This document shows positions 39,185 through 60,891 of a stretch of 64,000 bases of DNA, in pieces. The position numbers were made by a program, and so were the translations under genes. Source of the DNA: Faecousia sp. (lineage in GTDB: Bacteria > Bacillota > Clostridia > Oscillospirales > Oscillospiraceae); contig JARIBV010000133.1 in the NCBI GenBank assembly GCA_029257335.1, forward strand, positions 1 to 64,000. Direction: 5' to 3'. The notes beneath the pieces are model-generated. The model saw nothing but the letters and a program-made list of their open reading frames with translations. It had not been told where the DNA came from and searched no databases. Within the stretch, counting starts at the first letter, position 1. Every line of letters begins with the position of its first letter.

Positions 39185-40476
39185 TTACAGGGGAAATTGC
39201 ACGATATGATGGAACTGCTTTTGCGAAGCATTGTAATACATGGAGGCAATGCCGCCATATTTGTCCACCACCCGCTGAATGCTTTTTAACCCCATGCCGT
39301 GGCTGCCCGGCTTATTTGTGCGGAACTGCCCGTGGGTGTCCGGAATGGGGGCAATGTCACAGGAATTTTCCATGGAGACCAGGACGATTTGCTGTTCCGG
39401 GTGGTAGATGACGGACAGCTCGATCATCCGCTGGGCGGAACGGTCCGCTGCCTCCACGGCGTTGGAAAGCAGATTGCTGTAGAAGGTGGTCAGGCTGGGG
39501 GCGTCCATGAAGGAGAAGCAGTGTTCCCTTATGTCACAGTGGAAGCGAATCTGCTTATTTTGGCAATCCTCCCGGGTGCGCAGCAGGATCATATTTACTA
39601 TGGGGTCGGAGCACAGCCGAACCTGCTGGGCAGGAGTCAAGGTTTCCTCCAGCCTGGCCAGATAGTCTGCAATGGCAGAGCAGCTGCCCGATGCGGCAAG
39701 ACTCTCAATGGTGTGCAGGTGGTTCTCGATATCGTGAATGAGAATTCGTTGGTTTTCGGATTGTTCCTGCAACGCCTGATAGTAGGCAGTGTCGGCCTCC
39801 TCCCGCTGCAAGCTGAGCTCCAGGGCCAGCTGTTCGGCGTGTGTTTTCTGGAGATGATGGTACAGGATCAGAACGATCACATTGGCAGCCAGCAGCACCA
39901 GGGTGTTCATCACCATCAGTAGTCTGGTGGAATCGTTCATGTGGCCGGATATGCCGATGGAAACAATGATGATGCACAGAACCACCGACAGAAGGGGAAA
40001 TACATAAAACAAAGGGGTAAGCCGGGGGGAAGCTCCGGCTGTTTTGGAAAAGAGGCATCTTGCCCCCAAAAGGGAAACGGCCAGATACAGCAGTTTGCTG
40101 ATAACGGCCACGGCCACCATGATCGGAAGATCGTGGATATAGGCATCAAAGCGATACCCCCAGGCGGTAACCAGCAGAACCGATGCAATCTCGGTGATGC
40201 ACATGGCGGCGCTTAGAAATGCGCAGTGGAGAATGGCCCCATGCCGGCTGGTGACATAATTCAGGCGGAACAGTAAAACATTCCCGGTGAAAAAACAGAC
40301 CGTGTTGAGGATGGGGAGCTTCCACTGCGCAATGCCTCCCAAGAGGCCGTATAAGAGGAAAAACTGGAGCAAAATCGTTCGGATGGTTTTTTGCGGTAAA
40401 ATAAATGCTCCACATAGAGCCAGGCGGTGATTCCTTCCACCAGACAGACTGCGGCGTAACAGATCAAATCTTCCAT
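39185..40476 (-). pseudogene. GHKL-domain sensor histidine kinase (AgrC-like), apparent 1-nt frameshift
   Basis: Main frame 39185..40372 (HDIENHLHTIESL; HGMGLKSIQRVVDKYGG); N-terminus MEDLICYAAVCLVEGITAWLYVEHLFYRKK lies in another frame ending at an A6 tract (40387-40392 on +). Confidence 0.8.
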
Positions 40477-41188
40477 TATTTCACACTTTCCAGATACGCC
40501 AGATAGGCCTCTTTGAAGGAGCTGTATTTTCTCTTGGTCAGATAGGCGGTTTTTCCGTGGTGCCCCATTTGAGAAAAACAGCGTCCTTCTGAATGGAATT
40601 GACAAAGCGCATATTGATGATAAAGCTGCGGTGGGGAACGGAAAAGCAGGGAAGGGTCAGAATCTGCCGCCAATCCTCCATGGTCTGGGTGCTTTGCAAA
40701 AGACCCTCGGTTGTGTAGACCATGGTTTTTCGCTGTGCGGCCTCCACACAGACGATTTCTTCTGCCCGCCGCAGAAAGACGCCCTGACCGGTTAGGACGG
40801 GAAATTCTTTGGTTTCCATATGATACTGGTAAAGTGCATCTTTCAGATTGCGAAACAGGCGGTCTTTGTCGATGGGTTTGGACAGATAGCGAAAGACCTG
40901 AAACCGCATGGCCTCGTCCAGATAATCGGGATAGGCGGTGACGATAAAGAGCTTGATGTGGGGATTGTAGGTTTTCAGGGCGGCCCCCACCTGGATTCCA
41001 TGGATTCCGGGCAGTTTCACATCCAAAAATGCAAGATCCGCTTTTCGCTCCGCAGCCAGAAGGGCTTCCCCGCTGGTGTATGCGGCAAACTCCGGCGGTT
41101 TGCATCCCAGAGAGACAAAATACTCCCTTACATAGGACTGAAGCTGTTCGATGATTGCGGCCTCGTCATCGCAGAACAGAATTCGCAT
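40476..41188 (-). pseudogene. LytTR-family response regulator (AgrA-like), apparent 1-nt frameshift near the C-terminus
   Basis: MRILFCDDEAAIIEQL...LAFLDVKLPGIHG...VTAY; LytTR core VPHRSFIINMRFV; frame breaks at A5 tract (40550-40554), continuation GKTAYLTKRKYSSFKEAYLAYLESVK in adjacent frame. Confidence 0.82.
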
Positions 41189-41388
41189 GGAAGATCACCT
41201 GCCAAAATCGTAATGATGTGATTATAACACAAATAGAATGTGTTGTCACGAGATAATTTTGTACAAAGTGCTTCTTTTTCAGGGCTGCCCTGACAGCCCT
41301 GAAAAGCAGCCGGCAAGGGGAACGCAATGCCCGGAAAAGAGGTCAATGACCAAAACGGTATGATTTTTGTTGTTTCATGCAAATGGGA

Positions 41389-41417
41389 TTGCAAATAATA
41401 ATTCTGTAAGATATAAT
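41389..41417 (+). promoter_or_regulatory. sigma-A-like promoter for ABC exporter 2
   Basis: TTGCAA - 17 nt - TATAAT; upstream gcaaat direct repeats. Confidence 0.6.
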
Positions 41418-41533
41418 ATTAGCGCAGGTATGTAGATGATTGACTGATATGATAAATTGTTTTACACAAAGCATCAAACAGAAAGCGGCTGTGCCGTGTT
41501 CCGTACAGCTGCCTCAGTGTTATAAGGGGGCGT

Positions 41534-43414
41534 TTGAGAATGAATCTAATGCTAAAACAGGCAATCCGAAAGCCAATCTTTACCATGCTTATGGTGCTGC
41601 TGCTCAGCCTCTCCGATGCATTGTCCTGCATCGGTTATTCCGCCCTGATTAGTGCAAGACTTCAGCAGAAAGCCATTACCACAGAGTACACCACCGTTGC
41701 CATTCCCAAACATCCGGAGGCGTCGGACCCATATTCGGATGAACTGGGAGTGGCATTGCAGAAATGTCTCTATGCGGACAGGGCGGCTCAGGAAGCCCAC
41801 CAGCTGGAGATGGTTGACCGAAGAGGGTATCTGGCCGGACATATTCCCGGAAGCCGTTCCCTGTCGTCCAGCAGTGTTGAATTTGGGGAATATAACCGTT
41901 CGTTTGATGAGGAGCCATATTCTCTGTCGGTGTTCGCCCTTCGATGCGAAAGTATTACCGCTGAGGAAACAAAGAATGAGCGTACATACACTGGTACATT
42001 TACGGTAGAAGAAGTGGTGGCCCTGTCTCCGGCCTACGATTGCTTCCCGGATCCGGATACCATTTGTATTTTTGGAAATATGTACCGGGAGGATGGCTCC
42101 GTTCCGTTCCAACAGGGAAAGACTTATCTGGTTTTCGGAACTTACTATGATAAAAGAGTGGTCAATGGGCGTGGGATCCTATTGCATGAGGATGGAACAC
42201 ACACAACGGAAACCTATCGTCAGGTGGAAACAGATAGTCGTACTTTGGTGCCCTTTCCGTTCCTTAGCAGTCAGGTAACCGCTGAACCTTCCAGTTTGGC
42301 GGAGGCAGACCTGAACGGGATACCCTATTATTATCCTTCGGAAGGACAGCTCCCATGGATGGCCGAATACGAAGGTTCGGTGGAGGAATTTCTATCTAGT
42401 GAGGAAGGACAGGTCTGGAAAGAAGAGATTCTGCCCATGTGTCAGTACAACTATGAATCCGCTGCGGTGATTCTGACGGATAAAGTGACCAGTATGTACT
42501 CCTTCAACAATGGCGATGCCAGTCTGGTGTCCGGCCGCTTCTTTACCCAAGAGGAGTACGATCGGGGAGAGGCGGTCTGCATCGTCAGTGCCGCCTATGC
42601 GGAACTCAATGGCCTGAAGCTGGGAGATACTCTGGAAATCGATTATTACGATTCCGGTTTTGCAGATTGGATGAACGGCGGACACGTCAATTCCATATTC
42701 GAGACAGAAGACCCCGGCCCATTTCGGCAAAGAGGCTGTCTGATGCTGGAAGATGCAATCGGGGTTCGCAAACAATATACCATTGTAGGCATGTATACCG
42801 GGGCACGGTTTGCTTTTGGTATCTATCACTTTAATGCGGATACGATCCTGGTTCCCAAGAAGTCGGTTCCCAATGCACAGGCGTATGAAAAATCGGCCAA
42901 TTCTCTGCTGAATACCTTTGTCCTGAAAAATGGCACCGAGCAGGAATTTGAACAGTACATGGAAGAACAGGACTTGGGAGGCCAGTTCCTTTATTTCAAT
43001 CAGGAATTTACCGCCGCCCAGGGGGCTTTGGAGGCTTTGGAGCAGAACGCTCTGCGGCTGTTCTGCCTGGGGGTCGGCGTGTTCCTTTTGGTGGGGGCGT
43101 TGTTCCTGTTCCTGAATTTCCGCCGGATGAAGCCTGTCATCCGAACGGCCAGAGGGCTGGGCCGGTCGGCAAAGAAGATTTGGGGCGAAATTCAGGTGCT
43201 GCTTCTGTTCCAGGTGGGCATGTCCGCCCTTTTGGGAGGGGTGCTGGGGGCAGTCCTGTATAGAACCATTACCAGAAGGGTGCTGTCGGAGGCTCTGATC
43301 CTTCGGCCCGCTGCATTGGCAGAGGCGGCACTGCTTTTGTTTGCAGCACTGTTTGTTGCCGCTTCCTGTTGGGCTGCATGGGCGGTCAGCCGGAAGCTCA
43401 TGAAGGGGAAATAA
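41534..43414 (+). CDS. ABC transporter permease (FtsX-like)
   Basis: 626 aa; large extracytoplasmic domain with C-terminal TMs. Confidence 0.75.
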   Translation: MRMNLMLKQAIRKPIFTMLMVLLLSLSDALSCIGYSALISARLQQKAITTEYTTVAIPKHPEASDPYSDELGVALQKCLYADRAAQEAHQLEMVDRRGYLAGHIPGSRSLSSSSVEFGEYNRSFDEEPYSLSVFALRCESITAEETKNERTYTGTFTVEEVVALSPAYDCFPDPDTICIFGNMYREDGSVPFQQGKTYLVFGTYYDKRVVNGRGILLHEDGTHTTETYRQVETDSRTLVPFPFLSSQVTAEPSSLAEADLNGIPYYYPSEGQLPWMAEYEGSVEEFLSSEEGQVWKEEILPMCQYNYESAAVILTDKVTSMYSFNNGDASLVSGRFFTQEEYDRGEAVCIVSAAYAELNGLKLGDTLEIDYYDSGFADWMNGGHVNSIFETEDPGPFRQRGCLMLEDAIGVRKQYTIVGMYTGARFAFGIYHFNADTILVPKKSVPNAQAYEKSANSLLNTFVLKNGTEQEFEQYMEEQDLGGQFLYFNQEFTAAQGALEALEQNALRLFCLGVGVFLLVGALFLFLNFRRMKPVIRTARGLGRSAKKIWGEIQVLLLFQVGMSALLGGVLGAVLYRTITRRVLSEALILRPAALAEAALLLFAALFVAASCWAAWAVSRKLMKGK

Positions 43415-43432
43415 AAGAAAGGGGGCATTGCT

Positions 43433-44584
43433 GTGAGTTCCTTGAGCGGTGTGACCTGGAGGGCAATGTGGCGGCGCTGGGTTTCCGCTTTGCTCCTGAT
43501 TGCGGTGGCAGCAATGGGAGCCTGCGGGGCGGTGGTACTGCAAAATCTCACCGTGCGGCAGGAAAACGCATGGAACGATACGGTTTCCAACACAAAAATC
43601 AACTGCGTTGTTACCAACGCCAGAGGAACCGACTCCGGAAATCTGCAAATGCTCTCGGCCTTTGTGGAAATGCTGGAGGGGAAACGGCGGGAACGGGGCT
43701 GCTATTTGGATGACTATGTGACCAATGTCCGGGCCAAGGCCACCGTTTCTCTGGAATACCCCAAAGGAGCCGCTTTGCGGCGGATTCTTTCCATTGATTC
43801 CGACCCGGCACTGCACCAGGTGGAAGGGGCTGTGGTTACCTTTGCGGAGGGATGGACGGAAGCGGCATTGCGGGGAAAGGAACAGGTTTGTCTCGTCTCT
43901 TCCGATTTGCAGACCCAGGGGGATTCAATCACCATTTCCGAAAGTGAAGAGCAGAAAATCGACCTCCACATCATTGGTACGGTGGCGGGAGGCCCGGGAA
44001 ATACCATTTACTGCCCCTATTTTATGCCCTATACCCAGGGAGAATCCGTTGCATTTATGACGCAAAGCTGCTCCTTTGACATCCGGGACAATGCCCGTCT
44101 GGAAGAAACCAAGGAGGAACTCTATCAGTGGTTTGTTGAGCCGAAGTTCAGCAATCAGATGGACGGGTTGACCTTTGGCGTTTTGGTGCAGGACGAAATT
44201 TATCAAAAGACCTTGTCGGAAATCCGGGACAATCTGGCCATGCTGAGACTGATGCAGCCGATGCTGTTCGTCCTGTGCGGCGGGATCGGATTCTTTGCCA
44301 GCTATCTGGCCACCCGGGGCAGAACCAAAGAATTCGCAGTGATGCGGTGCATCGGCATGAGCCGGGGCAGGGTCTTTGGCCTGGTCATGGCGGAATTGGT
44401 GGTGCTGGCGCTGTTTGGCGCGGTTTTGGGAACCGCTGCGGGATTCCTGGTGGAAGGGAAGATTTTGCTCCGTGCTCTCACAAGAGCGGCGCTTATTACG
44501 GGGATCTTTGTTCTTGGTTCTGCCATTGCCGCAGTCCGTATCACAGGGGTCAATGTGATGAAATTGATGAAAGTGGAGGATTGA
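43433..44584 (+). CDS. ABC transporter permease (FtsX-like)
   Basis: RGRTKEFAVMRCIGMSRGRVFGLVMAELVVLALFGAVLGTAAGF. Confidence 0.8.
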   Translation: MSSLSGVTWRAMWRRWVSALLLIAVAAMGACGAVVLQNLTVRQENAWNDTVSNTKINCVVTNARGTDSGNLQMLSAFVEMLEGKRRERGCYLDDYVTNVRAKATVSLEYPKGAALRRILSIDSDPALHQVEGAVVTFAEGWTEAALRGKEQVCLVSSDLQTQGDSITISESEEQKIDLHIIGTVAGGPGNTIYCPYFMPYTQGESVAFMTQSCSFDIRDNARLEETKEELYQWFVEPKFSNQMDGLTFGVLVQDEIYQKTLSEIRDNLAMLRLMQPMLFVLCGGIGFFASYLATRGRTKEFAVMRCIGMSRGRVFGLVMAELVVLALFGAVLGTAAGFLVEGKILLRALTRAALITGIFVLGSAIAAVRITGVNVMKLMKVED

Positions 44585-44586
44585 AC

Positions 44587-45258
44587 ATGAAAAGTCTGGC
44601 TGCAAAGGATGTTACTTATGAATATCGGAATTCCTTCCAGACCGTCAGGGCCGTGAACGGCGTGACCTGCGAGTTTCAACAGGGCGTGGTCTATGCCATT
44701 GTGGGCAGCTCCGGCAGCGGAAAGACGACCTTTCTGTCCCTCCTGGCGGGATTGGATGTACCTACCTCCGGTTCCGTTGAACTGGACGGAGAATCCACGG
44801 CAAATGCCAACCGGGATGATTACCGGCTGAACCATGTATCGGTTATTTATCAGAATTTCAATCTGTTTTACCATTTGACGGTGCTGGAAAATGGAGCATA
44901 TCCCCTTTATGTGCGCAATATGCCGAAAAAGAAAGCGAACGAACTGGCACGGGAGAGACTGCTGCAAGTGGGGTTGCAGGAAAGCCAGTTCAAGCGGCTT
45001 CCCAATATGCTCTCAGGAGGCGAGCAGCAGCGTGTGGCCATAGCCAGGGCACTGGCTTCGGGCAGCGAGATCATTCTGGCGGATGAACCTACGGGGAACC
45101 TGGACAGCACCAACAGCCGCAACATTGTGGAAATTTTGCAGCGGCTTGCCCACGAGGAAAAACGCTGCGTCATCATCGTGACCCATGACCCGTCAGTGGC
45201 AGAGGCTGCGGATGTGGTGCTGCAAATGAAGGACGGGGTCCTGACCCAGCCGGAATAA
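44587..45258 (+). CDS. ABC transporter ATP-binding protein
   Basis: VGSSGSGKTTFLSLLAGLD; LSGGEQQRVAIARALASGSEIILADEPTGNLDS. Confidence 0.93.
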   Translation: MKSLAAKDVTYEYRNSFQTVRAVNGVTCEFQQGVVYAIVGSSGSGKTTFLSLLAGLDVPTSGSVELDGESTANANRDDYRLNHVSVIYQNFNLFYHLTVLENGAYPLYVRNMPKKKANELARERLLQVGLQESQFKRLPNMLSGGEQQRVAIARALASGSEIILADEPTGNLDSTNSRNIVEILQRLAHEEKRCVIIVTHDPSVAEAADVVLQMKDGVLTQPE

Positions 45259-45354: not shown

Positions 45355-45453
45355 GGGCTGTGGAAAAAACTGGGTTGTGTGGGACATCTCGACTATTTCC
45401 CGTTTTTGTGCTACAATAAAACCCATCTATCATTCCGGAAGGGGGCATTTGAT

Positions 45454-48081
45454 ATGGGCAAGCAGGTGGAGGAAGCGCCACGCAAAAAAATATGTGTGGG
45501 TCTTTTGGCCCATGTGGATGCGGGAAAAACCACCCTGTCCGAGGCAATGCTGTATCAGGCGGGGGCCCTCAAAAAGCTGGGAAGGGTGGACCATGGCAAC
45601 GCCTGCCTGGACACCCACGAGCTGGAGCGGAGCCGGGGCATCACCATTTTTTCCAGCGGCGCAGCCATGCGGTGGGGAGAGCTGGATGCAACCCTGGTGG
45701 ATACGCCGGGCCATGTGGACTTTTCCACGGAGACCGAACGGACCTTGCAGGTGCTGGACTACGCCGTTATGGTCATTGCCGGCCCCGACGGGGTCCAGGC
45801 CCACACGGTGACCCTGTGGGAGCTTCTGCGGCAGTACCATGTGCCCACCTTCCTGTTCGTGAACAAAACCGATTTGCCCGGGCCGGGGGAAGAGGCCATT
45901 ATGGAGGACATTCGGAAGAATCTCTCTGCCAACTGTGTCAGCTTCAGCCAGCCGGTGGAGGGCATCTATGAGGAGGCTGCCACGGCGGAGGAGACGGCGC
46001 TGGAAGAATATCTGGAACGGGAAACCCTGTCCCGGGACACCCTGTGCCGTCTTGTGAAGGAGCAGACCCTGTTTCCCTGCTTCTTTGGCGCCGCTCTGAA
46101 ATTGCAGGGGGTGGAAGCGCTGCTGAACGGCCTGGAAATGCTGACCCGGCCTGCTTCCTTCGGGGAGGGCTTTGGAGCGAAGGTGTATAAGATTTCCAGA
46201 GACCCACAAGGGGTGCGCCTGACCTGGATGAAGGTCACAGGAGGAACCCTGCAAGTGCGATCCCCCGTTTCTTACACCCTGCCGGATGGCGAAAAGGTGG
46301 AGGAAAAGGCCAAGGAGCTGCGCTTGTATCAGGGGGACCGATACATCCAGTCGGAGCAGGCAGAGCCGGGCACCATCGTGGCGGTGGCGGGGCTTTCCAA
46401 AACCCGGCCGGGACAGGGACTGGGGCTGGAACCGGATGGAATCACCCCAAAGCTGGAGCCGGTCATGACCTTTGGGCTGGAGCTTCCCCAGGGTGTGGAC
46501 CCGGCCCGGATGATGCCAAAGCTTCAGGAGCTCTGTGAGGAGGACCCCCAGCTTTCCATTGTGTGGGACCAGCGGCTGCAGCAGATCCAGGCCCGGCTGA
46601 TGGGGACGGTACAGTGTGAGGTGCTGAAAAGCGTCATCATGCAGCGCTTTGGGGTGGAGGTCCGCATCGGAACAGGCCGGATCTTGTACAAAGAGACCAT
46701 CAAGGCCCCCACAGAGGGGGTGGGCCACTATGAGCCCCTGCGGCATTATGCGGAGGTCCATGTGCTTTTAGAGCCTCTGCCCAGAGGCAGCGGCCTGGAA
46801 TTTGGGGTCAGCTGCAAGGAGGACCAGCTGGACCGGAACTGGCAGCGGCTGATTCTCTGCCACCTGATGGAAAAGACTCATCGGGGCGTTTTGACCGGGT
46901 CGCCGGTTACGGATCTGCGGATCACCCTGATTTCCGGCCGTGCCCATGTGAAGCACACGGAAGGAGGCGACTTCCGGCAGGCCACCTATCGGGCTGTGCG
47001 CCAGGGACTCATGGGAGCCGAAAGCGTGCTGCTGGAGCCCTGCTATCAGCTGCGGCTCACGGTGCCCCTGGCCCAGGTTGGACGAGCCATGCAGGATTTG
47101 CAGACCATGGGGGCAAAGACGGAGCAGACCCAGGTGGGAGATACGGCCCTTTTTACGGGGACGGTCCCGGTTTCCGGACTGGGAGATTATGCCGCCCAGG
47201 TGGCCTCCTATACCCATGGACAGGGCAGGCTTTTCTGCCGTCCCGGGGGATATGTGGTGTGCAAGGAGGCGCAGCAGGTCATTGAGGCCATGGACTATGA
47301 CCCGGAGGCGGATTTGGAAAATACCCCGGACTCTGTATTCTGCGCCCACGGGGCGGGATTTCATGTGAAATGGAATCAGGTTTCCCAATATATGCACCTG
47401 CCGGCCCTGCTTGCCCCCAAGCCTCAGCCCAGGGCGGAGCGGCCCAGAGCGGACAGAGAGGATCTGGAACTGGAAAAAATCATGGAGCGGGAATTTGGCC
47501 CCATCAAGCGGCCGGTCTATACGCCGCCCAGAGTCCGTTCCTCTCCCATCACGGCCCCGGCGCCTGCTGCCAGAACGGAATATCTGCTGGTGGACGGCTA
47601 CAACATCATTTTCGCCTGGCCGGAGCTGAAGGAGCTGGCCCGGGAGGATCTGGAGGAGGCCAGAAACCGGCTCATGGACATCCTGAGCAACTACTGCGGC
47701 TTTTCCCACCGGGAGGTGGTGCTGATTTTTGACGGCTACCGGGTCAAGGGAAATCGAGGGGAACGATTTTTGTACCACAACCTGCTGGTCATCTATACCA
47801 AGGAAAATGAGACCGCAGACGCCTATATTGAGGCGCTGGCCCTGTCCATCGGCAGAAACGAGCGGGTCTATGTGGCCACCTCCGACAATCTGGTGCGGCT
47901 GTCTGCCTTTCGCAGCGGCATTTTGCGGGTGTCGGCACAGGAATTGCAGGCGCAGGTGGAGGCCTGCAAAAAGGACATGCAGGCCTATTTGAAAAAACAG
48001 TCTGCCGAGGATCGATATAAAGAGCAGCAGGCCAGAAATCAGACCTGGAGCCGAATGCTGAAAGATCTGAAACTGCCCTGA
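45454..48081 (+). CDS. EF-G/TetM-like translational GTPase fused to C-terminal NYN (YacP/Rae1-like) nuclease domain
   Basis: AHVDAGKTTLSEAML, RGITIFSS, DTPGHVDF, VNKTD; domain IV LISGRAHVKHTEGGDFRQATY; C-term EYLLVDGYNIIFAW...EVVLIFDGYRVKGN...TADAYIEALALSIGRNERVYVATSDNLVR. Confidence 0.88.
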   Translation: MGKQVEEAPRKKICVGLLAHVDAGKTTLSEAMLYQAGALKKLGRVDHGNACLDTHELERSRGITIFSSGAAMRWGELDATLVDTPGHVDFSTETERTLQVLDYAVMVIAGPDGVQAHTVTLWELLRQYHVPTFLFVNKTDLPGPGEEAIMEDIRKNLSANCVSFSQPVEGIYEEAATAEETALEEYLERETLSRDTLCRLVKEQTLFPCFFGAALKLQGVEALLNGLEMLTRPASFGEGFGAKVYKISRDPQGVRLTWMKVTGGTLQVRSPVSYTLPDGEKVEEKAKELRLYQGDRYIQSEQAEPGTIVAVAGLSKTRPGQGLGLEPDGITPKLEPVMTFGLELPQGVDPARMMPKLQELCEEDPQLSIVWDQRLQQIQARLMGTVQCEVLKSVIMQRFGVEVRIGTGRILYKETIKAPTEGVGHYEPLRHYAEVHVLLEPLPRGSGLEFGVSCKEDQLDRNWQRLILCHLMEKTHRGVLTGSPVTDLRITLISGRAHVKHTEGGDFRQATYRAVRQGLMGAESVLLEPCYQLRLTVPLAQVGRAMQDLQTMGAKTEQTQVGDTALFTGTVPVSGLGDYAAQVASYTHGQGRLFCRPGGYVVCKEAQQVIEAMDYDPEADLENTPDSVFCAHGAGFHVKWNQVSQYMHLPALLAPKPQPRAERPRADREDLELEKIMEREFGPIKRPVYTPPRVRSSPITAPAPAARTEYLLVDGYNIIFAWPELKELAREDLEEARNRLMDILSNYCGFSHREVVLIFDGYRVKGNRGERFLYHNLLVIYTKENETADAYIEALALSIGRNERVYVATSDNLVRLSAFRSGILRVSAQELQAQVEACKKDMQAYLKKQSAEDRYKEQQARNQTWSRMLKDLKLP

Positions 48082-48084
48082 ACC

Positions 48085-48128
48085 AGGAAACGCCTTCTCT
48101 GCATTGGTTTGCGGAGAAGGCGTTTTTG
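48085..48128 (+). terminator. terminator after GTPase-NYN gene
   Basis: aacgccttctctgcattggtttgcggagaaggcgttttt. Confidence 0.75.
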
Positions 48129-48564: not shown

Positions 48565-48879
48565 TTATGCGGGGCGCTTCATTTCGTTGACGGCCGCTTC
48601 CAGCAGGGGGCGGAGCTCTTCCGGGGATGTGGGAATGCCGTAGCGGCTCAGAAGAGATGAGGCCTCTTGCAGCGCCTTTTCATATTTGGCAGGGCCGTCC
48701 AGATCCTGATAGACCTGCTGGACAAAGCGCACAACGGTGCCGGCTACCTGCACCTTGGTCTCGCTGTCCAGAAATTTTCTGGTCATGGTCTTGAGGGCAA
48801 TGCCCAGATAACCGAACAGTATGCTGACAAGAGCAGCCAGAAGCTCCAGCCCGTACTGCTGCAAAAATTCTGCAAACAT
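48565..48879 (-). CDS. phage holin (LLH-type)
   Basis: MFAEFLQQYGLELLAALVSILFGYLGIALKTMTRKFLDSETKVQVAGTVVRFVQQVYQDLDGPAKYEKAL. Confidence 0.8.
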   Translation of the reverse strand: MFAEFLQQYGLELLAALVSILFGYLGIALKTMTRKFLDSETKVQVAGTVVRFVQQVYQDLDGPAKYEKALQEASSLLSRYGIPTSPEELRPLLEAAVNEMKRPA

Positions 48880-48880
48880 A

Positions 48881-49156
48881 TCAATTTCCTCCTGATTCGC
48901 AGCGGATGCTGCTGCGTTCTTCCAGATGGTCGATCCGGTGGTTGATGACCTTGATCTGCTCCTCCAGAACCGGCATCCGGCGGGCAAAGCCATTGTGCTC
49001 CCGCACCTCCCGGGCCAGCTCTTCCAGCTTTGTCTCCGTGACGGCCTGGGTCTTTTCCAGACCGTGCTGGATGCGGCGGCTGCCGGAGACATTGGTGAAA
49101 ATTACACCAATCAGAGCAAGACCACCGGTAATGATGGCGGCCAAAATGCTCTCCAT
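48881..49156 (-). CDS. phage membrane/coiled-coil protein (XhlA-like)
   Basis: MESILAAIITGGLALIGVIFTN...TETKLEELAREVREHNGFARRMPVLEEQIKVINHRIDHLEE. Confidence 0.75.
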   Translation of the reverse strand: MESILAAIITGGLALIGVIFTNVSGSRRIQHGLEKTQAVTETKLEELAREVREHNGFARRMPVLEEQIKVINHRIDHLEERSSIRCESGGN

Positions 49157-49171
49157 TGCGTGTCCTCCCTT

Positions 49172-49870
49172 TTAAAAAATCTCCAGCCGGTCCAGAATCA
49201 CCAGAGTCCGCATCAGATCATAGCTCAGGTTCAGGCCCGTTCCCGTTCCTTCCAGGACGCCCCGGGAAAGCAGCTTGTCAACGGTGGGCTTTGCCCACCG
49301 GGGGATGGCTTCCGGCTCTTTGAGATCCCGGGCCACATCCCGGCGGAAGTCGGACATGGTTTTGTTGTGGCGCCGGAACCAGTGGGCCACATCTCCGTGG
49401 TTGGAAGCAATGCCCAGCATGTGGCCCTCGGCATGGTCGATGAGGACCCCCGGGGTTTCGGGGTTCAGGTCAAACTTCCGGCACAGCTCCACACAGACCG
49501 CCCGGGCCGTCTCATACACCTCCTCAAAATAGGCGGGATCTTCCAGATTGTCCTCACACAGCTCAATGGAAATGTGGGTATCATTGCCGCTGCTGCCGCA
49601 GTGCCACCCCCGCATGGTAAAGGGCAGGGTCTGATAGCACCGGACAGAGCCGTCCTTTGTCCTGCCGATAAAGGCATGGACGCAGACATCCAGACCGGGA
49701 TGGTTCCAGTGGTTGTCGTAGATATTTTCTCCTAAAATTCCGTCATCAGGGCCTACATACCGCCTGAGATTGGGATTGTTGGCACCTGTGGAATGGAGCA
49801 TAATGCCCTTGGGGGTCATGGGGGTACCTCGCCGGTAGCAGTCGTTGTTGGTCAGAAGCAGAGTATTCAT
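49172..49870 (-). CDS. N-acetylmuramoyl-L-alanine amidase (endolysin)
   Basis: GIMLHSTGANNPNLRRYVGPDDG...NHWNHPGLDVCVHAFIGRTKDGSVRCYQTLPFTMRGWHCG...HAEGHMLGIASNHGDVAHWF. Confidence 0.88.
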   Translation of the reverse strand: MNTLLLTNNDCYRRGTPMTPKGIMLHSTGANNPNLRRYVGPDDGILGENIYDNHWNHPGLDVCVHAFIGRTKDGSVRCYQTLPFTMRGWHCGSSGNDTHISIELCEDNLEDPAYFEEVYETARAVCVELCRKFDLNPETPGVLIDHAEGHMLGIASNHGDVAHWFRRHNKTMSDFRRDVARDLKEPEAIPRWAKPTVDKLLSRGVLEGTGTGLNLSYDLMRTLVILDRLEIF

Positions 49871-50295
49871 GGCAGTTCCTCCTTTTGAACTTCTTTGACA
49901 TAGAGACCTGAGAGGTCTTTGAGCGGATGGGATACGGGCAGGCCCGTATTGCGGATACACAGATAAACGGTGCCCTCCTGACGGTAGCACAGCCCACGAT
50001 GCAGAGCCATCTCGCCGGGGAAGGGGATGGGGTCGGTGCAGGTGCCCAGATGGGCCTCCGCCACCTCCTCCCAGAGGTTGGGAGCCTTGTCCGGCTCTCG
50101 TCCCTTTTTAGGGGTGTGGGCCTGTCGGCAGCGGTAGACCCGGCCCTCATAGCACACTGCCTCGCCTGCCTCATAGGGGTTGCTCCGACCCCAGCGGGGA
50201 CACAGCCGCCGGAGCACCGGGCACAGCTTCTCCTCCACGGACCGGAGGGCAGCTTCCACACAGGCCCCATAAAAGGGAGCTTGGGGTGGGGGCAT
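49867..50295 (-). CDS. phage protein with carbohydrate-binding (ChtBD3-like) motif
   Basis: NPYEAGEAVCYEGRVYRCRQAHTPKKGREPDKAPNLWEEV. Confidence 0.6.
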   Translation of the reverse strand: MPPPQAPFYGACVEAALRSVEEKLCPVLRRLCPRWGRSNPYEAGEAVCYEGRVYRCRQAHTPKKGREPDKAPNLWEEVAEAHLGTCTDPIPFPGEMALHRGLCYRQEGTVYLCIRNTGLPVSHPLKDLSGLYVKEVQKEELP

Positions 50296-50362
50296 GAGAG
50301 AGTTTCCCGCAATGGCAGGGAGGCTCTGTGGGGCGGAAGATCGTATGGGTTCCCGAATCTTT

Positions 50363-50932
50363 CTACACCCCCCAGGTCAGCACATATTCATAGGTGATGG
50401 ACGGGTCCAGCGCGACGGGCAGACCCACATTGAAGCCGGTGGGCCACATGGCCACCGCAAGCTTCTGAGCGTCCATGGGGTCAGCGTCCATGATCCACAG
50501 GGGATTGTAGGCACATTCAAAGCTGGAACCATCCATGGTACGGACGCTTAAATTGGGGGTGTTGTCGATGGTGCTCAAGGAATTGTTGGGGCCGAAGGTG
50601 AGGTCCGTGCCGTCGGGGGTGACGGAGGGGACATAGAGCTGGACTTTGTAGACCATGTCTCCGGAGGAATTGGGGAATTTCGTACCCTTGGGATACATGC
50701 AGAAGGAAAAGGGCTTCAGCTGCCCCAGATTGTGGACCAGCTTCAGGATCAAAGGCTCCCCGCCGCCTCCGGCTACGGTATACTGGCCCCGGTGCACCAG
50801 ATTGGAAGACTGGTAGCCTGCAAAGAGTGTCTTCATGGCGCTGGAGAGATCGGGATGCTGCGTGCCGGTGATGTTGTTGGAGATGCGCAGCAGATTTTGC
50901 AGTTTTTCGATCACAGCTTGGGCTGTGGCCAT
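50363..50932 (-). CDS. phage hypothetical structural protein
   Basis: 189 aa ORF in collinear late-gene cluster; precedes lysis genes. Confidence 0.6.
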   Translation of the reverse strand: MATAQAVIEKLQNLLRISNNITGTQHPDLSSAMKTLFAGYQSSNLVHRGQYTVAGGGGEPLILKLVHNLGQLKPFSFCMYPKGTKFPNSSGDMVYKVQLYVPSVTPDGTDLTFGPNNSLSTIDNTPNLSVRTMDGSSFECAYNPLWIMDADPMDAQKLAVAMWPTGFNVGLPVALDPSITYEYVLTWGV

Positions 50933-50934
50933 GG

Positions 50935-51618
50935 TTAGTTCCCTCCAATCAGCCGGTCAATGGCATTCACGGAGCCTGCAAGCAGGGAATCCACGTATGC
51001 CTTATTGACGGCATCGGTATTTTTTAGGGGATTTGCCAGAGGGCCCACACGGATGGGCTGGCTCTGACCTCCCAGACGGATGGTGCTGTCCGGATCGGTG
51101 GTGGCAGCCAGGGGAAACAAATCGGCTCCGTTGCGGGACTGAAACCGGACACAGCCGCCGCGCAGCCGCAGATCTCCCTGCAAGGTACCGTCGAAGGTGC
51201 CGTCCCTGCCGTTTTCCACGGTGTAGGTCCAGGAGGTGCCGTCGGTGTAGGTGATGGTATAGGTGTCGGTTTTTCCCTGGGTGCCGGTTTTGGCAATGCT
51301 CTGGATGCCCCGGTTTTTAAAGGACCCCACATTCTGGGTCACACCGTCGGTATAGGCCAGCATCAGGTGATCTCCTTCCATATAGGCGTGGGAAATGCCC
51401 CGGCCCCGGATGGAGCCTACGTTCTGGGTGGTGCCGTCGGAAAAATGGAGAATGAGATCATCGCCTTTTACCTGGGCCAGGGTAATGCCCCGGCCTGCCA
51501 CGGTGCCCAGATTCAGCTGGGTCCCGTCTGTGAGGGTCACATGCAGACGGCCGCCTTTGACCTCCACCTGGGCGATGCCCCGCTGGATGACCCCCTTTAC
51601 ACTTGCTGTAATATTCAT
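50935..51618 (-). CDS. phage tail-fibre-like repeat protein
   Basis: Three ~30-aa repeats DGTxxNxGxxxxRGI plus TYTITYTDGTSWTYTVENGRDG linker. Confidence 0.65.
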   Translation of the reverse strand: MNITASVKGVIQRGIAQVEVKGGRLHVTLTDGTQLNLGTVAGRGITLAQVKGDDLILHFSDGTTQNVGSIRGRGISHAYMEGDHLMLAYTDGVTQNVGSFKNRGIQSIAKTGTQGKTDTYTITYTDGTSWTYTVENGRDGTFDGTLQGDLRLRGGCVRFQSRNGADLFPLAATTDPDSTIRLGGQSQPIRVGPLANPLKNTDAVNKAYVDSLLAGSVNAIDRLIGGN

Positions 51619-51622
51619 CGGT

Positions 51623-51901
51623 TCACCTCACGATCAAAGGCTGGTCCGTGACCACAGTGGTCCATTGGCTGTTGTGGCGGACACGGATGCGGTAGTGATA
51701 TCGCCCCTGGGGAAGATCGCCCCGGAGGGGCAGGGAAATGCGGTGGCTCTGCGAGGCCGTCACTTTGAGAACCACCTGCCGGGAGCGGTTGAAGAGGGTC
51801 AGCTCCACCTCCTCGGAGGTACCGGGGGAAACGGGGGTCCCGTCCTGATCCCGAAGCTCCAGGGAAAAGTCGATAGAGCCTGTATCTCCGGCGCAGCACA
51901 A
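51623..51901 (-). CDS. phage hypothetical protein; the true start may lie upstream
   Basis: 92 aa beta-rich ORF; frame open upstream to a non-ATG start after aaaggagatg. Confidence 0.5.
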   Translation of the reverse strand: MCCAGDTGSIDFSLELRDQDGTPVSPGTSEEVELTLFNRSRQVVLKVTASQSHRISLPLRGDLPQGRYHYRIRVRHNSQWTTVVTDQPLIVR

Positions 51902-52054
51902 AATCTCGCCGGATTCAATGCAGGGGGAAAGCCCGGAAGAGGGGATATTGGAATGATCCAGAGGGGGTCATCTCCTTTCTGTGCGAAAATAGTGGGATGG
52001 GTTCCGGCGGGAAGAAGGCAGGCGGCGTTTTGGCAGCGCCGCCTGCGCCTCTTT

Positions 52055-52888
52055 TTAATAAGGGGTGTTGACCCGGTCCATGAGATGGGGAGGGGCCTTG
52101 GGGTGGTCCTTCTTTTCCCGTTCGGACTCCAGATCCGCAATGATGCGGTTGAATTCGGCCAGGGCTTCCCAGGGATAGCCCTCGGCCTTGAGGAACCGCC
52201 AGCGATCCGTGGGGCCTTTGCCCTGGCGCAGCCACTCCTCTGCCAGCACATAGAGATAGGGGTCGGAGTCGGTCTCGAAGGTTCGGCGGGGTTTTCCACC
52301 GCTTCGGCCGCCGCCGCTTCGGCTGCCGCCGGCTGAGGCGTTTCGCAGGGCCTGGGCCTGATCCCGGTCGAATTCCTGCTGCCACTGGTGCTGCTTGCTG
52401 TCAAATTCCTTCTGCCAGTTCTCCTGCTGCTGCTTGCGGTCCTGCTCCTGCATGGCAAGGCCGTATTCTTCCAGCCAGTTGCGGTAGGCATCCTGCCAGC
52501 GGGAGTAGTCGGCAGACTCCTGCTGGGTCTTTAACTGGTACAGGTCCAGAAGATCCTGTCCTTCCCGGTCATAGACGCTGTGGGCCTGGGCGTACAGCTC
52601 CGGCACCAGTTGATTGAGCTGCTCCAGATAGGCGTTGTAGGCCTGCTGTCCCACATTCTGGCTGTAGGAGGTGCTGTAGCCTCCCGTGAGGCCGGCGGCC
52701 TTGCCCTGGGTGTCCGCCATGGCCTGTCGGCCCAGATTGATATACTGGTTTTTATACTGCTGATACAGGGAATTTTCGTCCAGATCAAAGGTAAAGGGCT
52801 TTCTGGTGGTGATCTTTTCATAGATCTGGTCCAGCTCTTCTTTGTGCTGGGACTGATATTGCTGTGGTTTTTTCTTAGTTTCCATCAC
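52055..52888 (-). CDS. phage hypothetical structural/internal protein
   Basis: 277 aa, Gln/Tyr-rich, in collinear cluster. Confidence 0.6.
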   Translation of the reverse strand: MMETKKKPQQYQSQHKEELDQIYEKITTRKPFTFDLDENSLYQQYKNQYINLGRQAMADTQGKAAGLTGGYSTSYSQNVGQQAYNAYLEQLNQLVPELYAQAHSVYDREGQDLLDLYQLKTQQESADYSRWQDAYRNWLEEYGLAMQEQDRKQQQENWQKEFDSKQHQWQQEFDRDQAQALRNASAGGSRSGGGRSGGKPRRTFETDSDPYLYVLAEEWLRQGKGPTDRWRFLKAEGYPWEALAEFNRIIADLESEREKKDHPKAPPHLMDRVNTPY

Positions 52889-52997
52889 GATCCTCCCGAT
52901 TCAGTTGTGCAATGAGAAGAAACAGATACCGATACAGGGCTTGGACCTGTTCCTGTGTGGTGCCCTGGGGCCGTGGGGGCTGGGGCAGAACATTCAT
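52875..52997 (-). CDS. small 40-aa phage protein (not in ORF track)
   Basis: MNVLPQPPRPQGTTQEQVQALYRYLFLLIAQLNREDRDGN*; ATGA overlap with upstream gene stop, overlaps start of next gene. Confidence 0.6.
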   Translation of the reverse strand: MNVLPQPPRPQGTTQEQVQALYRYLFLLIAQLNREDRDGN

Positions 52998-54718
52998 GGG
53001 GTGTCACTTCCTTGTTCGTAGATTCTGGTAAGGGTGTAGATCTCCACCTGTCCATGGCCCTCCAGCCGCAGCCGCAGATGGTCGCAGCGCCGGGGGAAGA
53101 TCACCACCTGATGGGTGATGAGGCTGCCGTCCCCCTGCACATGGCTCACATGGTGCCAGGTCTCCTGGTCGTCATAGGACACCAGCACATCTGCCCAGGC
53201 ACCGGGACTGGGCCGCAGCCGCAGAAGGAGCCGCCGCAGGAACTGCCGGTGCTCCGTGGCCAGCTCAAAGGCGCCGGATTCTGCCCACCAGGACACGGGT
53301 TCCTGCCCGGCCTCCACCTCATAGATGCTGTCCTTTGTGGAAAATACCAGGGTGTTGGTGTCTCCGGCAAAATGGCGGATCTGGGGGCTGTCCTCCCGGT
53401 GCCAGATGCCGAGAGCGGTGTCAAACACATACAGTCCGCCGGGAATGGACAGATACAGCTTGTCTCCCAAAGCCCCGGCCAGGGCCTTGGTGCAGGAAAG
53501 AGGTCCCAGCGCCTGGGAAACGGTCTTGGGATAGGAGCCGTCATAGGCCACCACTTCTCTTCCCGTGCAGTAGTACAGCACCTCCTGACACACCGCCAGA
53601 GAGTCGGGCACGGGGCCCCGGCAGTTGGCCACGGAAATCTGATGGGCACCGCCGGAGGAGGGGTACACGGTTTCCATGGAGTTGGCCTTGAAGAAGACGG
53701 GCCTTCCCTGATAGGTCACGGCTCCGGTCCAGGGGCCCTGAGAGCCCCGAGAGGCCACATAGCTGTCCGTGGAGAGCCCTTCAAACTTGTTCCAGTTTTT
53801 GAAATCCCCCAGAGCGCAGGCATAGATCTCGTTGACCAGGGTGCCGTCTTTGTGGGAAGGGCCGTAGCGGCAGCCCCAGAGGCGGTTTCCTGCCTCCACC
53901 ACATAATCCAGCTGAGGACACTGCCGCAGGACCCGAAACACCCCTCTGGTCTGGACCGTGGTTCTGGGCAGGATCCCCGGCACGATGAGGAAGTTGTCGC
54001 CCACCTCCGTCAGGGTGCAGCAGGGATTGACAACCGCACCGTCAGGCAGCGTCAGGCCGTCCAGCGTTACGCCGTCTCCTCTGGAAAAGCCGTCTCCCAG
54101 ATGAGGGGCGGACAGCTTTACATAAGTGTCGGCAACGGCAGTCCAGCTTTTAAGGCCGGAGTCCCACTGCTTGAGACACAGAGGGCCGCTGCCATCCAGC
54201 CAAAGGGTGCCTCCGGAGGGGCTTGCGGGGGGCTCCGACTGGGGGGTTACGGAGTACACCGTTCCTTCCCGATTGCAAAGCTCCATTTTCAGATTCACAT
54301 TGGCGGTGGAAAAGCCGATGAGGTTGTCCACCAGACCATAGTCCTGGGGATCTGCGGTGTTGAGATAGGAGGGGGACATATACATGCCCAGATGGAAGAA
54401 CAGGAGATAGGACCCCATGGACAAAATGGTGATCTCGTCGGTTCCGCCGATGGTGAGGGGGTGGATTTTCCCCCCCACCACAATGTGGTTGTCCGTCACA
54501 TAGACCGGGCCGTCCATCCAGCCCAGTCCCCGGAGGTTCTGGCCGGAAATGCGCCGGACCCTGCTTTTTCTGGGGCACAGCAGGGGATAGCGGTGGGAGG
54601 AGAGATTCTCCTCCCCCTGCATCTCTCCCTCCCCGATGCGGCTGGCCCGATTGAGGCCCCCGAAGGCCTGTAGGGTCTTGCGGATCTCTCTGGGCACCGT
54701 CAGTTTGGGATAGAACAT
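52994..54718 (-). CDS. phage structural (tail/appendage) protein
   Basis: MFYPKLTVPREIRKTLQAFGGLNRASRIGEGEMQGEENLSSHRYPLLCPRKSRV; ~574 aa beta-rich. Confidence 0.65.
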   Translation of the reverse strand: MFYPKLTVPREIRKTLQAFGGLNRASRIGEGEMQGEENLSSHRYPLLCPRKSRVRRISGQNLRGLGWMDGPVYVTDNHIVVGGKIHPLTIGGTDEITILSMGSYLLFFHLGMYMSPSYLNTADPQDYGLVDNLIGFSTANVNLKMELCNREGTVYSVTPQSEPPASPSGGTLWLDGSGPLCLKQWDSGLKSWTAVADTYVKLSAPHLGDGFSRGDGVTLDGLTLPDGAVVNPCCTLTEVGDNFLIVPGILPRTTVQTRGVFRVLRQCPQLDYVVEAGNRLWGCRYGPSHKDGTLVNEIYACALGDFKNWNKFEGLSTDSYVASRGSQGPWTGAVTYQGRPVFFKANSMETVYPSSGGAHQISVANCRGPVPDSLAVCQEVLYYCTGREVVAYDGSYPKTVSQALGPLSCTKALAGALGDKLYLSIPGGLYVFDTALGIWHREDSPQIRHFAGDTNTLVFSTKDSIYEVEAGQEPVSWWAESGAFELATEHRQFLRRLLLRLRPSPGAWADVLVSYDDQETWHHVSHVQGDGSLITHQVVIFPRRCDHLRLRLEGHGQVEIYTLTRIYEQGSDTP

Positions 54719-54735
54719 AGGCAGCCTCCTTTCTG

Positions 54736-55110
54736 CTAGAACAGCTTCAGACTCACCGCCCCCTTGGGGGGGCAGGTGCGGTTCACGGCATCCATATAGG
54801 TGAGAAGGGCGCTGTGGTACTGGGCGGCGGCATTGTTGCACAGAAGCGTCTCTCCCAGGACCTCGGCGGTTTTCATCTCCAGATAGGGTCCATAGAGGGT
54901 GTCATAGGGAAACGGGACCAAAAGGGGAGTGGAAAGATCCGTGTCCCCGTCATAGGGGAGAAAGAAGGTCTCATCCGCTATATAATGGGTTTGCAGAAGC
55001 TCTTTGTGCATGGCCCCGTCCAGGTGGGACAGCCACTGCACCATGACCTCCGCCGGAACCACCGCCCCGAATCGGCGGCGGGAGGCGGTGATCGCTTCGC
55101 CGATGGTCAT
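54736..55110 (-). CDS. phage head-completion/connector-like protein
   Basis: 124 aa, follows capsid genes in late-operon order. Confidence 0.5.
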   Translation of the reverse strand: MTIGEAITASRRRFGAVVPAEVMVQWLSHLDGAMHKELLQTHYIADETFFLPYDGDTDLSTPLLVPFPYDTLYGPYLEMKTAEVLGETLLCNNAAAQYHSALLTYMDAVNRTCPPKGAVSLKLF

Positions 55111-55119
55111 GCAATCACC

Positions 55120-55314
55120 TCAATCCTGACTGTTTTCCTGAAGGAAGGCGTCGTTTTTCTCCTGGGCGGCCCGGGCATTGGCCAGGACCTCTGCCACGGC
55201 ATCGTCCACCTGGACCTCCACGCCCCGCTGGATGCGCCAGCCCTGTCCGTTGACGCCCACAAAAATATCGGCTTCCTGGCCCTTCTGGGCTCTGGGTAAA
55301 AATACGGTTTTCAT
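55120..55314 (-). CDS. small phage head-region protein
   Basis: 64 aa MKTVFLPRAQKGQEADIFVGVNGQGWRIQRGVEVQVDDAVAEVL. Confidence 0.6.
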   Translation of the reverse strand: MKTVFLPRAQKGQEADIFVGVNGQGWRIQRGVEVQVDDAVAEVLANARAAQEKNDAFLQENSQD

Positions 55315-55328
55315 AGTCGGTTACCTCC

Positions 55329-56363
55329 TTAGTTGGCTTCGTCTACAGAAGAGAAGGAAGAGCCGCTTTCCACGCGGACCATTCTCTCCTGATAGAGGAT
55401 CTGGGTTGCGGATTCAAACTTATAGCCCACGGTGGAGAACTGGTTCAGAGGACCGCCCACCTGAGACTTGTCCTTGATGATCATTTCCAGGCCCATGCCC
55501 TCCGGGTCCACCACGCCAAAGGCGTTCTTGCCGAAGAACAAGGTGGCGTAGACCATGGCGCCTCCTGCGCCGCCGGTCATGACCGGGGCCTCCGTGGACT
55601 CGATGAAGCGGCAGCCACGGAGCTGGCCGATTTCGCCCTTGAAAATATCGGTGACGGCGGCATACTTGTGGGCTTCCACCCACTCCTGACTGGCGGTGAG
55701 GTCATAGGCAACGGAGGGGTGGATGACAGCCACATACCACTTGCCGTCAAACTTGGGCGCCTTGCACTTTTTCAGCCAGGTTACGGCCTTGTGCACCACA
55801 TCGGGAGTGAGCTTGCACTCGGCGGTGAGGGTGGCACGGGAGGTGTTGGGGGTGCTGCCCTTGGGGGCGTACATCACATTGGTGCCGGTGAGAAGCACAT
55901 TGCGGACCAGGGTGTCTGCGGTGGCGCCTGCGGCGGCACCCATTTCCTCGGTGGCACCCAGAATGATGGGGTCCACGGCGTGCAGGTCCAGCTGGTCGGA
56001 GATAGAGGTGTAGTCACCGAACTGCTGCACCTCAACGGAGGTGGAAGTCATGCCGAACTGCTTGCCGGTGGGGATGACCGCCTCTACCAGAGGGGTCATG
56101 GCCTTTTCAAAGGTGTTGAACTTTCTCCACTGGACGGTCTTGCCGTGGTTCCGGGGGAGGATCTGCTTTCTGCCCAGCTGGGTGAACACCAGCTGAGGAC
56201 GGGAGTTTTCCAGAAGCTCCGTGTCATAATAGGTTTTCATGGTGTGGCTCATGCCGTTGTTGGTGGTAGTGGTTCCCTTGTAGGCATCGGAGGTGCCGGT
56301 GGTGGTGTTGACCAGGGTGCCGCCTTCGGCAAAGAGCTGCAAATCCAGAATATCGTTCATCAT
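55329..56363 (-). CDS. major capsid protein, N4-gp56 family
   Basis: MNDILDLQLFAEGG...TYYDTELLENSRPQLVFTQLGRKQILPRNHGKTVQWRKFNTFEKAMTPLVEAVIPTG. Confidence 0.85.
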   Translation of the reverse strand: MMNDILDLQLFAEGGTLVNTTTGTSDAYKGTTTTNNGMSHTMKTYYDTELLENSRPQLVFTQLGRKQILPRNHGKTVQWRKFNTFEKAMTPLVEAVIPTGKQFGMTSTSVEVQQFGDYTSISDQLDLHAVDPIILGATEEMGAAAGATADTLVRNVLLTGTNVMYAPKGSTPNTSRATLTAECKLTPDVVHKAVTWLKKCKAPKFDGKWYVAVIHPSVAYDLTASQEWVEAHKYAAVTDIFKGEIGQLRGCRFIESTEAPVMTGGAGGAMVYATLFFGKNAFGVVDPEGMGLEMIIKDKSQVGGPLNQFSTVGYKFESATQILYQERMVRVESGSSFSSVDEAN

Positions 56364-56476
56364 ATACATTCTCCTTTTCCTGTGTGACAGATTGTGTTAC
56401 GGACGGATGAGGCACAGCGAAAGCTGCGTCGCAGAGAATCCTACATGCACATCCCCCCCTTTCTGCGGGACATGGG

Positions 56477-57100
56477 CTAAAAGATCACCCGTTCCCCCCG
56501 CATGGCCCGGTTGCGGTAGTCCTGCCGCTGCTGCTGGGTGAAATAGCGGGGATCCCGGATGCAGACGCCCCCCTGGGCACCCCCCAGGGCGCCCTCTCTG
56601 GGACGAAGGCTGCCGGACTGAAGGGCCTGGGTCATCTCCAGGGCGGTCTGCCGGGCCACCTGTGCCATGGCCCTGCCGATCATCTCCTTGAGATGGATCA
56701 GCTCATAGGCGGTTTCCACGGGAAAGCCTGTGGCAATGAGACGGCCAAAGGCCGGATTCTCCATTTCCTTCACCAGATCCAGCTGGGGAAACCGTTTCCG
56801 GGCCTGCTGAAACTGGCGGTAGACCGTGTCCCAGGGATGCTCGGGCGGCTTGGAAGGCTCCGGGTCAGAAGCGGCCTCGTCCTGCTTCGGTGCCTCAGAG
56901 GCGGGGTCCTGCTTCGATGTCTCAGAGGCGGGTTCCTGCTTTCGGTCATGGCAGGGGGGCTTCTCCCGGGTCTTGGCAGGAGCATCTTGCTCCTGCGGGG
57001 AAAGAGTAAGCTCTGCACGGGTCTTCTCCTGGACCTGCTGCTGGATCCGTGCCAGCTTCTGCTTGTCCGGCTGTCTGCCGGAGGTGGGGGTTTTGTCCAT
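56477..57100 (-). CDS. phage scaffold-like protein
   Basis: Charged, low-complexity N-terminal half, between protease and capsid; KQEPASETSKQDPASEAPKQDEAAS repeat. Confidence 0.6.
   Translation of the reverse strand: MDKTPTSGRQPDKQKLARIQQQVQEKTRAELTLSPQEQDAPAKTREKPPCHDRKQEPASETSKQDPASEAPKQDEAASDPEPSKPPEHPWDTVYRQFQQARKRFPQLDLVKEMENPAFGRLIATGFPVETAYELIHLKEMIGRAMAQVARQTALEMTQALQSGSLRPREGALGGAQGGVCIRDPRYFTQQQRQDYRNRAMRGERVIF
56880..56933. repeat. 2 x 27-bp imperfect tandem repeat within scaffold gene
   Basis: tcctgcttcggtgcctcagaggcgggg / tcctgcttcgatgtctcagaggcgggt. Confidence 0.8.
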
Positions 57101-57401
57101 AGGTATCTCCTTTCTTCCCTTGGGTTATGGAAATTTCGGCAGGATAGATGCGGGAAAGAAGCTCCAGCCCTGCCGCCACAAAGGACACTGCCTGCCGGGA
57201 AACGGTTCCCGGCGTGCCCACGATGTGGGCGTAGCCCGGCTCTAAAACGGCGGTTTGCAGGCATTGATCCTGCCGAAGCCGTGCCGCCATGGCGCACACC
57301 AGCATACTCACCGCCGCACAGACCAGATCCTGCCCCTTCGGGGCCACCCCTGCGTGGCCTCGCAGCTCCACCTCATAGGTGGTATAGATCCCCCGGATCA
57401 T
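56946..57401 (-). CDS. Prp-like (ribosomal-processing cysteine protease family) phage protease
   Basis: GHAGVAPKGQDLVCAAVSMLV: His/Cys dyad spacing of Prp family; ATGA overlap with portal stop. Confidence 0.78.
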   Translation of the reverse strand: MIRGIYTTYEVELRGHAGVAPKGQDLVCAAVSMLVCAMAARLRQDQCLQTAVLEPGYAHIVGTPGTVSRQAVSFVAAGLELLSRIYPAEISITQGKKGDTYGQNPHLRQTAGQAEAGTDPAAGPGEDPCRAYSFPAGARCSCQDPGEAPLP

Positions 57402-59074: not shown

Positions 59075-59101
59075 TGGATTCCTCCTGTCTTAAAAATGGG
59101 G

Positions 59102-60475: not shown

Positions 60476-60882
60476 GTGCAGTACTCCCCGGGCATGTCCT
60501 CCAGAACGATCTGGGCGGAGACCGTCTCCTTTTTCTGGGCGGCCAGAGCCAGTCTTGCCTCGTCCAGGGCCTTCTTGTGGGCCAGAGCGGGGCCGTCCAG
60601 ACCGTACAGGTCCCGCAAAATGGCCAGCAGCTCCTTGAGGACATTGGACATTTCCTTCACGGCCTTGGTGTCCAGCTTGTCCAGACGCACCAGCTCCGAC
60701 CAGGTTTTGCGGCTGATGAGATTGCCGGTGCCGTCGTCCACAGGGTCTTTGTAGGTTTCGCTGCGGTGCAGGACATACTGGTAGAACTGTTCGGAATCCG
60801 TGAGGGCGGCGGCCACAATGTCACACAGCCGCTGCACCCCCAGGGCCAGGGCCTCCAGCTTCGGTTCAACGGTATGATTCAA
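60472..60882 (-). CDS. putative terminase small subunit / packaging-adjacent protein
   Basis: 136 aa, overlaps terminase large start (ATGA). Confidence 0.55.
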   Translation of the reverse strand: MNHTVEPKLEALALGVQRLCDIVAAALTDSEQFYQYVLHRSETYKDPVDDGTGNLISRKTWSELVRLDKLDTKAVKEMSNVLKELLAILRDLYGLDGPALAHKKALDEARLALAAQKKETVSAQIVLEDMPGEYCT

Positions 60883-60891
60883 AAAATCACC

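Follow-up and report, generated by a model that had tools for sequence, protein, structure and literature searches.

A translational GTPase fused to a YacP/Rae1-type NYN ribonuclease domain in Clostridia, with a possible role at the ribosomal A site

Introduction

In the window analysed here, a stretch of 64,000 nucleotides from Faecousia sp. (contig JARIBV010000133.1, assembly GCA_029257335.1; family Oscillospiraceae, class Clostridia), one long open reading frame had been read from the letters alone as a TetM/EF-G-like translational GTPase fused to a YacP/Rae1-like NYN ribonuclease. The locus raises the questions whether one protein is encoded and whether that protein would act in rescue, surveillance or mRNA cleavage on the ribosome, as the original prediction had it, or in antibiotic resistance. 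Rae1 has been characterised as an endonuclease of A-site mRNA (PMC6613710, PMC12320835), the message being cut within the A site of the ribosome (PMC12320835), and the inventory of nucleases that cleave mRNA on bacterial ribosomes is said to be incomplete as yet (PMC12320835). The architecture is already known: a 2015 survey (PMC4342817) reported, in ten Clostridiales species, Tet proteins to which a YacP-like NYN domain had been added. It suggested a role in antibiotic resistance for them and did not test function; architecture and bacterial group are the same as for the fusion described here. The present analysis adds how prevalent the fusion is, that it replaces stand-alone YacP, that it stands apart from the resistance proteins and that it has lost the C-terminal motif of Rae1.

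Results

The fused gene and its flanking signals

The region 45454-48081 of the forward strand is a single stop-free frame, flanked by the following signals:

45389-45417, forward strand: promoter-like TCGACT-17-TACAAT with an extended -10 (9 of 12 matches; chance matches are common)
45437-45445, forward strand: Shine-Dalgarno-like sequence GGAAGGGGG, preceding the ATG at 45454
45454-48081, forward strand: fused translational GTPase-NYN gene, 875 aa (translation, Pfam, homologous loci)
48086-48127, forward strand: intrinsic terminator hairpin of 18 pairs

The list of open reading frames contains an earlier GTG start (45262, giving 939 aa); the relatives align from about residue 11 onwards, counted from the ATG start. 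The predicted leader of the gene is ∼30 nt, too short to encode an attenuator peptide like that of tet(M), and the neighbouring genes form no obvious operon with it. Since the full-length form recurs in 40 fetched loci (43–60% identity), the fusion is not an assembly artefact or a chance event, and the prediction of one protein was borne out by the frame, the Pfam domains and these loci. A conserved internal ATG was sought in the linker between the two halves and none was found; the linker lacks methionine in 21 of 37 fused proteins, which argues against two separate products from a conserved internal ATG start. An N-terminal extension of ∼500 aa in one relative (L054) has no Pfam domain and is probably open frame upstream of the true start.

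Domain organization

The following parts were delineated in the 875-aa protein:

45490-46137, forward strand: G domain, aa 13-228 (Pfam GTP_EFTU, 3e-45), with AHVDAGKTT, RGITI, DTPGH (H87), NKTD and GAAL
46177-46671, forward strand: EF-G domains II and III, aa 242-317 and 335-406 (Pfam EF-G_D2, a match slightly below the Pfam cut-off, and EFG_III)
46675-47019, forward strand: EF-G domain IV, aa 408-522 (Pfam EFG_IV), with a GVGHxEPLRHYAEVH motif
46942-46974, forward strand: loop III of domain IV, AHVKHTEGGDF, aa 497-507, differing from TetM and EF-G
47026-47271, forward strand: EF-G domain V, aa 525-606 (Pfam EFG_C)
47260-47397, forward strand: conserved Cys/His tail, aa 603-648 (C603, C630, which is invariant, and H648)
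47401-47577, forward strand: disordered linker, aa 650-708 (alignment, AlphaFold2)
47455-47496, forward strand: short conserved helix around LELEKIMEREFG, about aa 671-682
47584-48051, forward strand: YacP/Rae1-type NYN ribonuclease domain, aa 711-866 (Pfam NYN_YacP, 1e-45)

With G1–G5, the histidine of DTPGH and domains II–V, the protein belongs to the EF-G/EF2 superfamily. The GTPase motifs, including H87, were invariant in 37 fused sequences, and the motifs quoted in the original prediction are present. The assignment of the N-terminal ∼690 aa to an EF-G/TetM-like GTPase was right as to motifs and domains and too generous in length: the body of the GTPase ends near residue 606-650 and is followed by the Cys/His tail and then by a poorly conserved linker of ∼60 aa. 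The tail (C603...SVFC630...MH648), which could be a metal site, is common to the fused proteins and their non-fused sister proteins and missing in TetM/O/S/Q. Among the fused proteins domain IV is the best-conserved domain and the linker, save for the extreme C terminus, the least conserved part. The short helix within the linker (consensus DKEL-x-x-I-x-ER-x-[FY]G) is found in most f1 relatives and is a possible docking motif.

The AlphaFold2 model (mean pLDDT 83.5, pTM 0.63) was confident for the GTPase body and the NYN domain and of low confidence for the linker, so that it is to be read for the separate parts and not for their relative placement. A single-sequence model of the NYN domain was discarded (pLDDT 49). 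Foldseek matched the predicted structure to EF-G structures, and in overall fold the protein resembles EF-G/EF-G2 (PDB matches, E down to 3e-53). What sets it apart from EF-G are its domain-IV motifs, its tail and its NYN domain, all of which EF-G lacks.

Comparison of the NYN domain with Rae1

The NYN_YacP match scored 156 bits against a cut-off of 24.6. Alignment to Rae1/YacP of Bacillus subtilis (PDB 5MQ8, 5MQ9), the comparison on which the nuclease assignment had been staked, placed D714, D760, D789 and D811 at the catalytic aspartates D7, D53, D81 and D104 of Rae1; all four were invariant in 37 fused sequences. The fusion also shares the NYN fold with Rae1, along with the motifs ETAD and TSD. 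B. subtilis Rae1 differs in being a free-standing protein of ∼170 aa that ends in FEKLRR, whereas the fusion lacks that end and has the GTPase. More generally, a C-terminal motif of the LEK[IL]R[KR] type was present in 20 of 21 stand-alone Rae1-like proteins versus 1 of 42 fused proteins, the one fused match to LEK-x-R apparently being due to chance. The last residue of the B. subtilis motif is R166, and R166P is one of the loss-of-function mutations in rae1 that were recovered as suppressors of an efp deletion (PMC6613710). A loss of function by R166P, taken together with the missing motif in the fusions, fits a transfer of targeting to the GTPase; judged from the alignments, the GTPase may have replaced a putative targeting or stabilising element, the C-terminal motif of Rae1.

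On balance we favour the reading that the fusion stands in for Rae1 as a ribosome-associated endonuclease of A-site mRNA, with the EF-G-like GTPase as delivery and targeting module. The earlier proposal of a ribosome-targeted cleavage or rescue factor stands to this extent, as the intact motifs and the conservation of the unit point, at the level of sequence, to such a factor; its view of the architecture as functionally undescribed does not, the fusion and a proposed resistance role being already in PMC4342817.

Distribution of fused and stand-alone YacP

In the host genome (assembly 82% complete) the fused gene is the only NYN_YacP match. In the survey of domain architectures proposed at the outset, NYN_YacP was found in 139 of 201 family genomes and, in 134 of these 139, in open frames of at least 700 aa, which were taken as fused; fusion was checked directly in the 40 fetched loci and deduced from frame length in the other genomes. 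In three genomes (G110, G159, G195) the GTPase part is encoded on a different contig or in an adjacent frame, and these apparent splits are consistent with contig breaks and frameshifts. Among the genomes listed for the class sample, 83 had the fused form only, 59 the stand-alone form only, 1 both, and 6 were ambiguous; three further genomes had two NYN_YacP matches. The phylum sample contained 8 genomes with the fused form, about 62 with the stand-alone form and 0 with both. A few genomes have fused and stand-alone YacP together (Fisher ∼1e-11, a figure that describes the pattern only, as the genomes are not independent). In the family, and across a large part of the class, the fusion is the usual form of YacP and hardly ever occurs beside a stand-alone YacP, an observation that is new here, and the replacement of stand-alone Rae1 by the fusion in these Clostridia is well supported by comparison.

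About 30% of the family genomes have no NYN domain at all, and in most of those tested the GTPase part is missing too, which indicates that the two halves are gained and lost together and that the function is dispensable. These data bear on two alternatives. The first is a factor for ribosome assembly or RNA maturation, in which the GTPase would bind immature subunits and the NYN domain trim rRNA or tRNA. A part in the maturation of rRNA and tRNA was the first function proposed for NYN domains (cited in PMC4342817), and in B. subtilis rae1 shares a transcript with yacO, the gene for a 23S methyltransferase (PMC6613710); however, a gene missing in such a fraction of the family is hardly a core maturation step, and Rae1 itself is described as acting on A-site mRNA, so we regard this alternative as unlikely. 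The second is an uncoupled fusion, an elongation or recycling GTPase of the EF-G2 type and an independent Rae1 nuclease joined for convenience. The long, poorly conserved linker would suit it, as would the occurrence of non-fused GTPase relatives with and without stand-alone YacP. It is nevertheless improbable given that the fusion was kept across many genera, that both halves are absent jointly and that the Rae1 C-terminal motif was lost in the fusion only. A Rosetta-stone argument from the joint occurrence of non-fused GTPase and stand-alone YacP was set aside, the difference (5/16 versus 2/25, Fisher p 0.09) not being significant.

Genomic context

In 39 fused loci no conserved gene neighbourhood was found, just generic ABC transporters, and there was no conserved antitoxin or defence partner. 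This weighs against a conditional shut-off factor that would cut mRNA on all engaged ribosomes in stress, hibernation or phage response. Such a factor would have a precedent in the RelE-family toxins, which also cut A-site mRNA while bound to the ribosome (PMC12320835), and would fit the patchy presence among the family genomes. The gene shows no sign of belonging to the prophage that adjoins it, which as far as examined lies beside this copy only, and we consider a shut-off role very improbable. The prophage occupies 48565-61000 of the window on the minus strand and includes, on that strand, genes for an endolysin-type amidase (49175-49990), a P22-like portal (57401-59074) and a terminase large subunit (59105-60475). 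On the other side, at 39185-45258, a GHKL histidine kinase and a LytTR response regulator face an ABC ATPase and two MacB/FtsX-like permeases, an arrangement typical of modules for peptide sensing or peptide resistance.

Relationship to tetracycline protection proteins

The resistance role proposed in 2015 would make the fusion a protein that protects the ribosome against tetracycline or another A-site antibiotic and also uses RNase activity. Like TetM and TetO, the protein has domains I–V, the GTPase motifs and a loop III of equal length; its GTPase part scores higher with the tet_protect profile than with the EF-G profiles, and one fused relative has been annotated by NCBI as TetM/TetW/TetO/TetS-family. 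The score with NCBIfam tet_protect (NF012153) was, however, 406 bits, about half the cut-off of 775 that TetM (876) and TetO (851) pass. The tips of domain IV differ consistently, reading EPLRHYAEV and KHTEGGDF in the fusion versus PNPFWAS and SPVSTPADF in TetM-type proteins, and the fusion has the conserved Cys/His tail and the NYN domain in addition. The letters of loop III were dropped as proof against protection, since the SPV of TetM is replaceable: TetM with S508A, P509A and V510A stays active if the conformation is kept (PMC4750697), and because of this tolerance the sequence alone leaves protection possible.

In the GTPase tree the fused proteins and their non-fused SVFC-tail relatives formed a clade with a support of 100, apart from TetM/TetO/TetS/TetQ, of which the sampling was small. 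The label TetM-like thus holds for the EF-G/TetM-type domains and not for TetM proper, the clade being a distinct sister. The fusion gene is furthermore widespread and single-copy, with neither a leader of attenuator length nor a shared mobile neighbourhood. In contrast to the account in PMC4342817, the present data separate the GTPase from the TetM/O/S/Q clade and show a widespread fusion in the place of stand-alone YacP. The evidence disfavours a resistance role, and we judge protection doubtful as the function of the fusion. TetM/TetW/TetO/TetS-family annotations in Clostridia may denote ordinary translation factors, which bears on counts of resistance genes.

Origin of the fusion

The GTPase and NYN trees contain matching subclades, and a single fusion clade was not rejected on the NYN tree (AU p 0.378). 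The sister group consists of non-fused TetM-like SVFC-tail proteins of 640–700 aa, with 38–48% identity (for example WP_164920261.1 of Ligilactobacillus salivarius pMP118), which have the domain-IV motifs and the tail of the fusion but no NYN domain. The non-fused L. salivarius protein grouped with the fused clade on the GTPase tree; it could have lost its NYN domain or represent the ancestral condition. On pMP118 (L111:2526-4917) the non-fused sister GTPase is annotated as tetracycline resistance and adjoins a gene for ribosomal protein S14. A stand-alone YacP (L049, genome G408) grouped among the fused NYN domains and is 55% identical to the NYN domain described here; G408 has a separate non-fused GTPase, and the sequence relationships could indicate a secondary split or a transfer.

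Proposed mode of action

For an A-site endonuclease delivered by its GTPase, the following course may be envisaged. The GTPase part (domains I–V) would dock at the factor site when a 70S ribosome has paused, placing domain IV in the A site, after which the NYN domain, tethered by the flexible linker of ∼60 aa, would cut the A-site mRNA as Rae1 does in Bacillus. GTP hydrolysis would then free the factor and leave the truncated mRNA for rescue by tmRNA. In this scheme the binding to the ribosome, the cut, its coupling to GTP hydrolysis and the signal that is recognised are inferred. Since the A site would be required by the EF-G-like factor and by the Rae1-like domain alike, the order of events given here is provisional, a point against the scheme. 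More tentatively, the GTPase cycle might time the NYN cut; such a GTP-gated A-site endonuclease could be the normal mRNA-cleavage step of rescue in much of the gut Clostridia, a class of quality control not described so far. Many gut bacteria would be affected. How Rae1 finds the ribosome is little understood, and a lineage that swapped the C-terminal end of Rae1 for a translational GTPase provides a natural experiment on targeting. The host genome has tmRNA, and a normal EF-G gene is present elsewhere in it.
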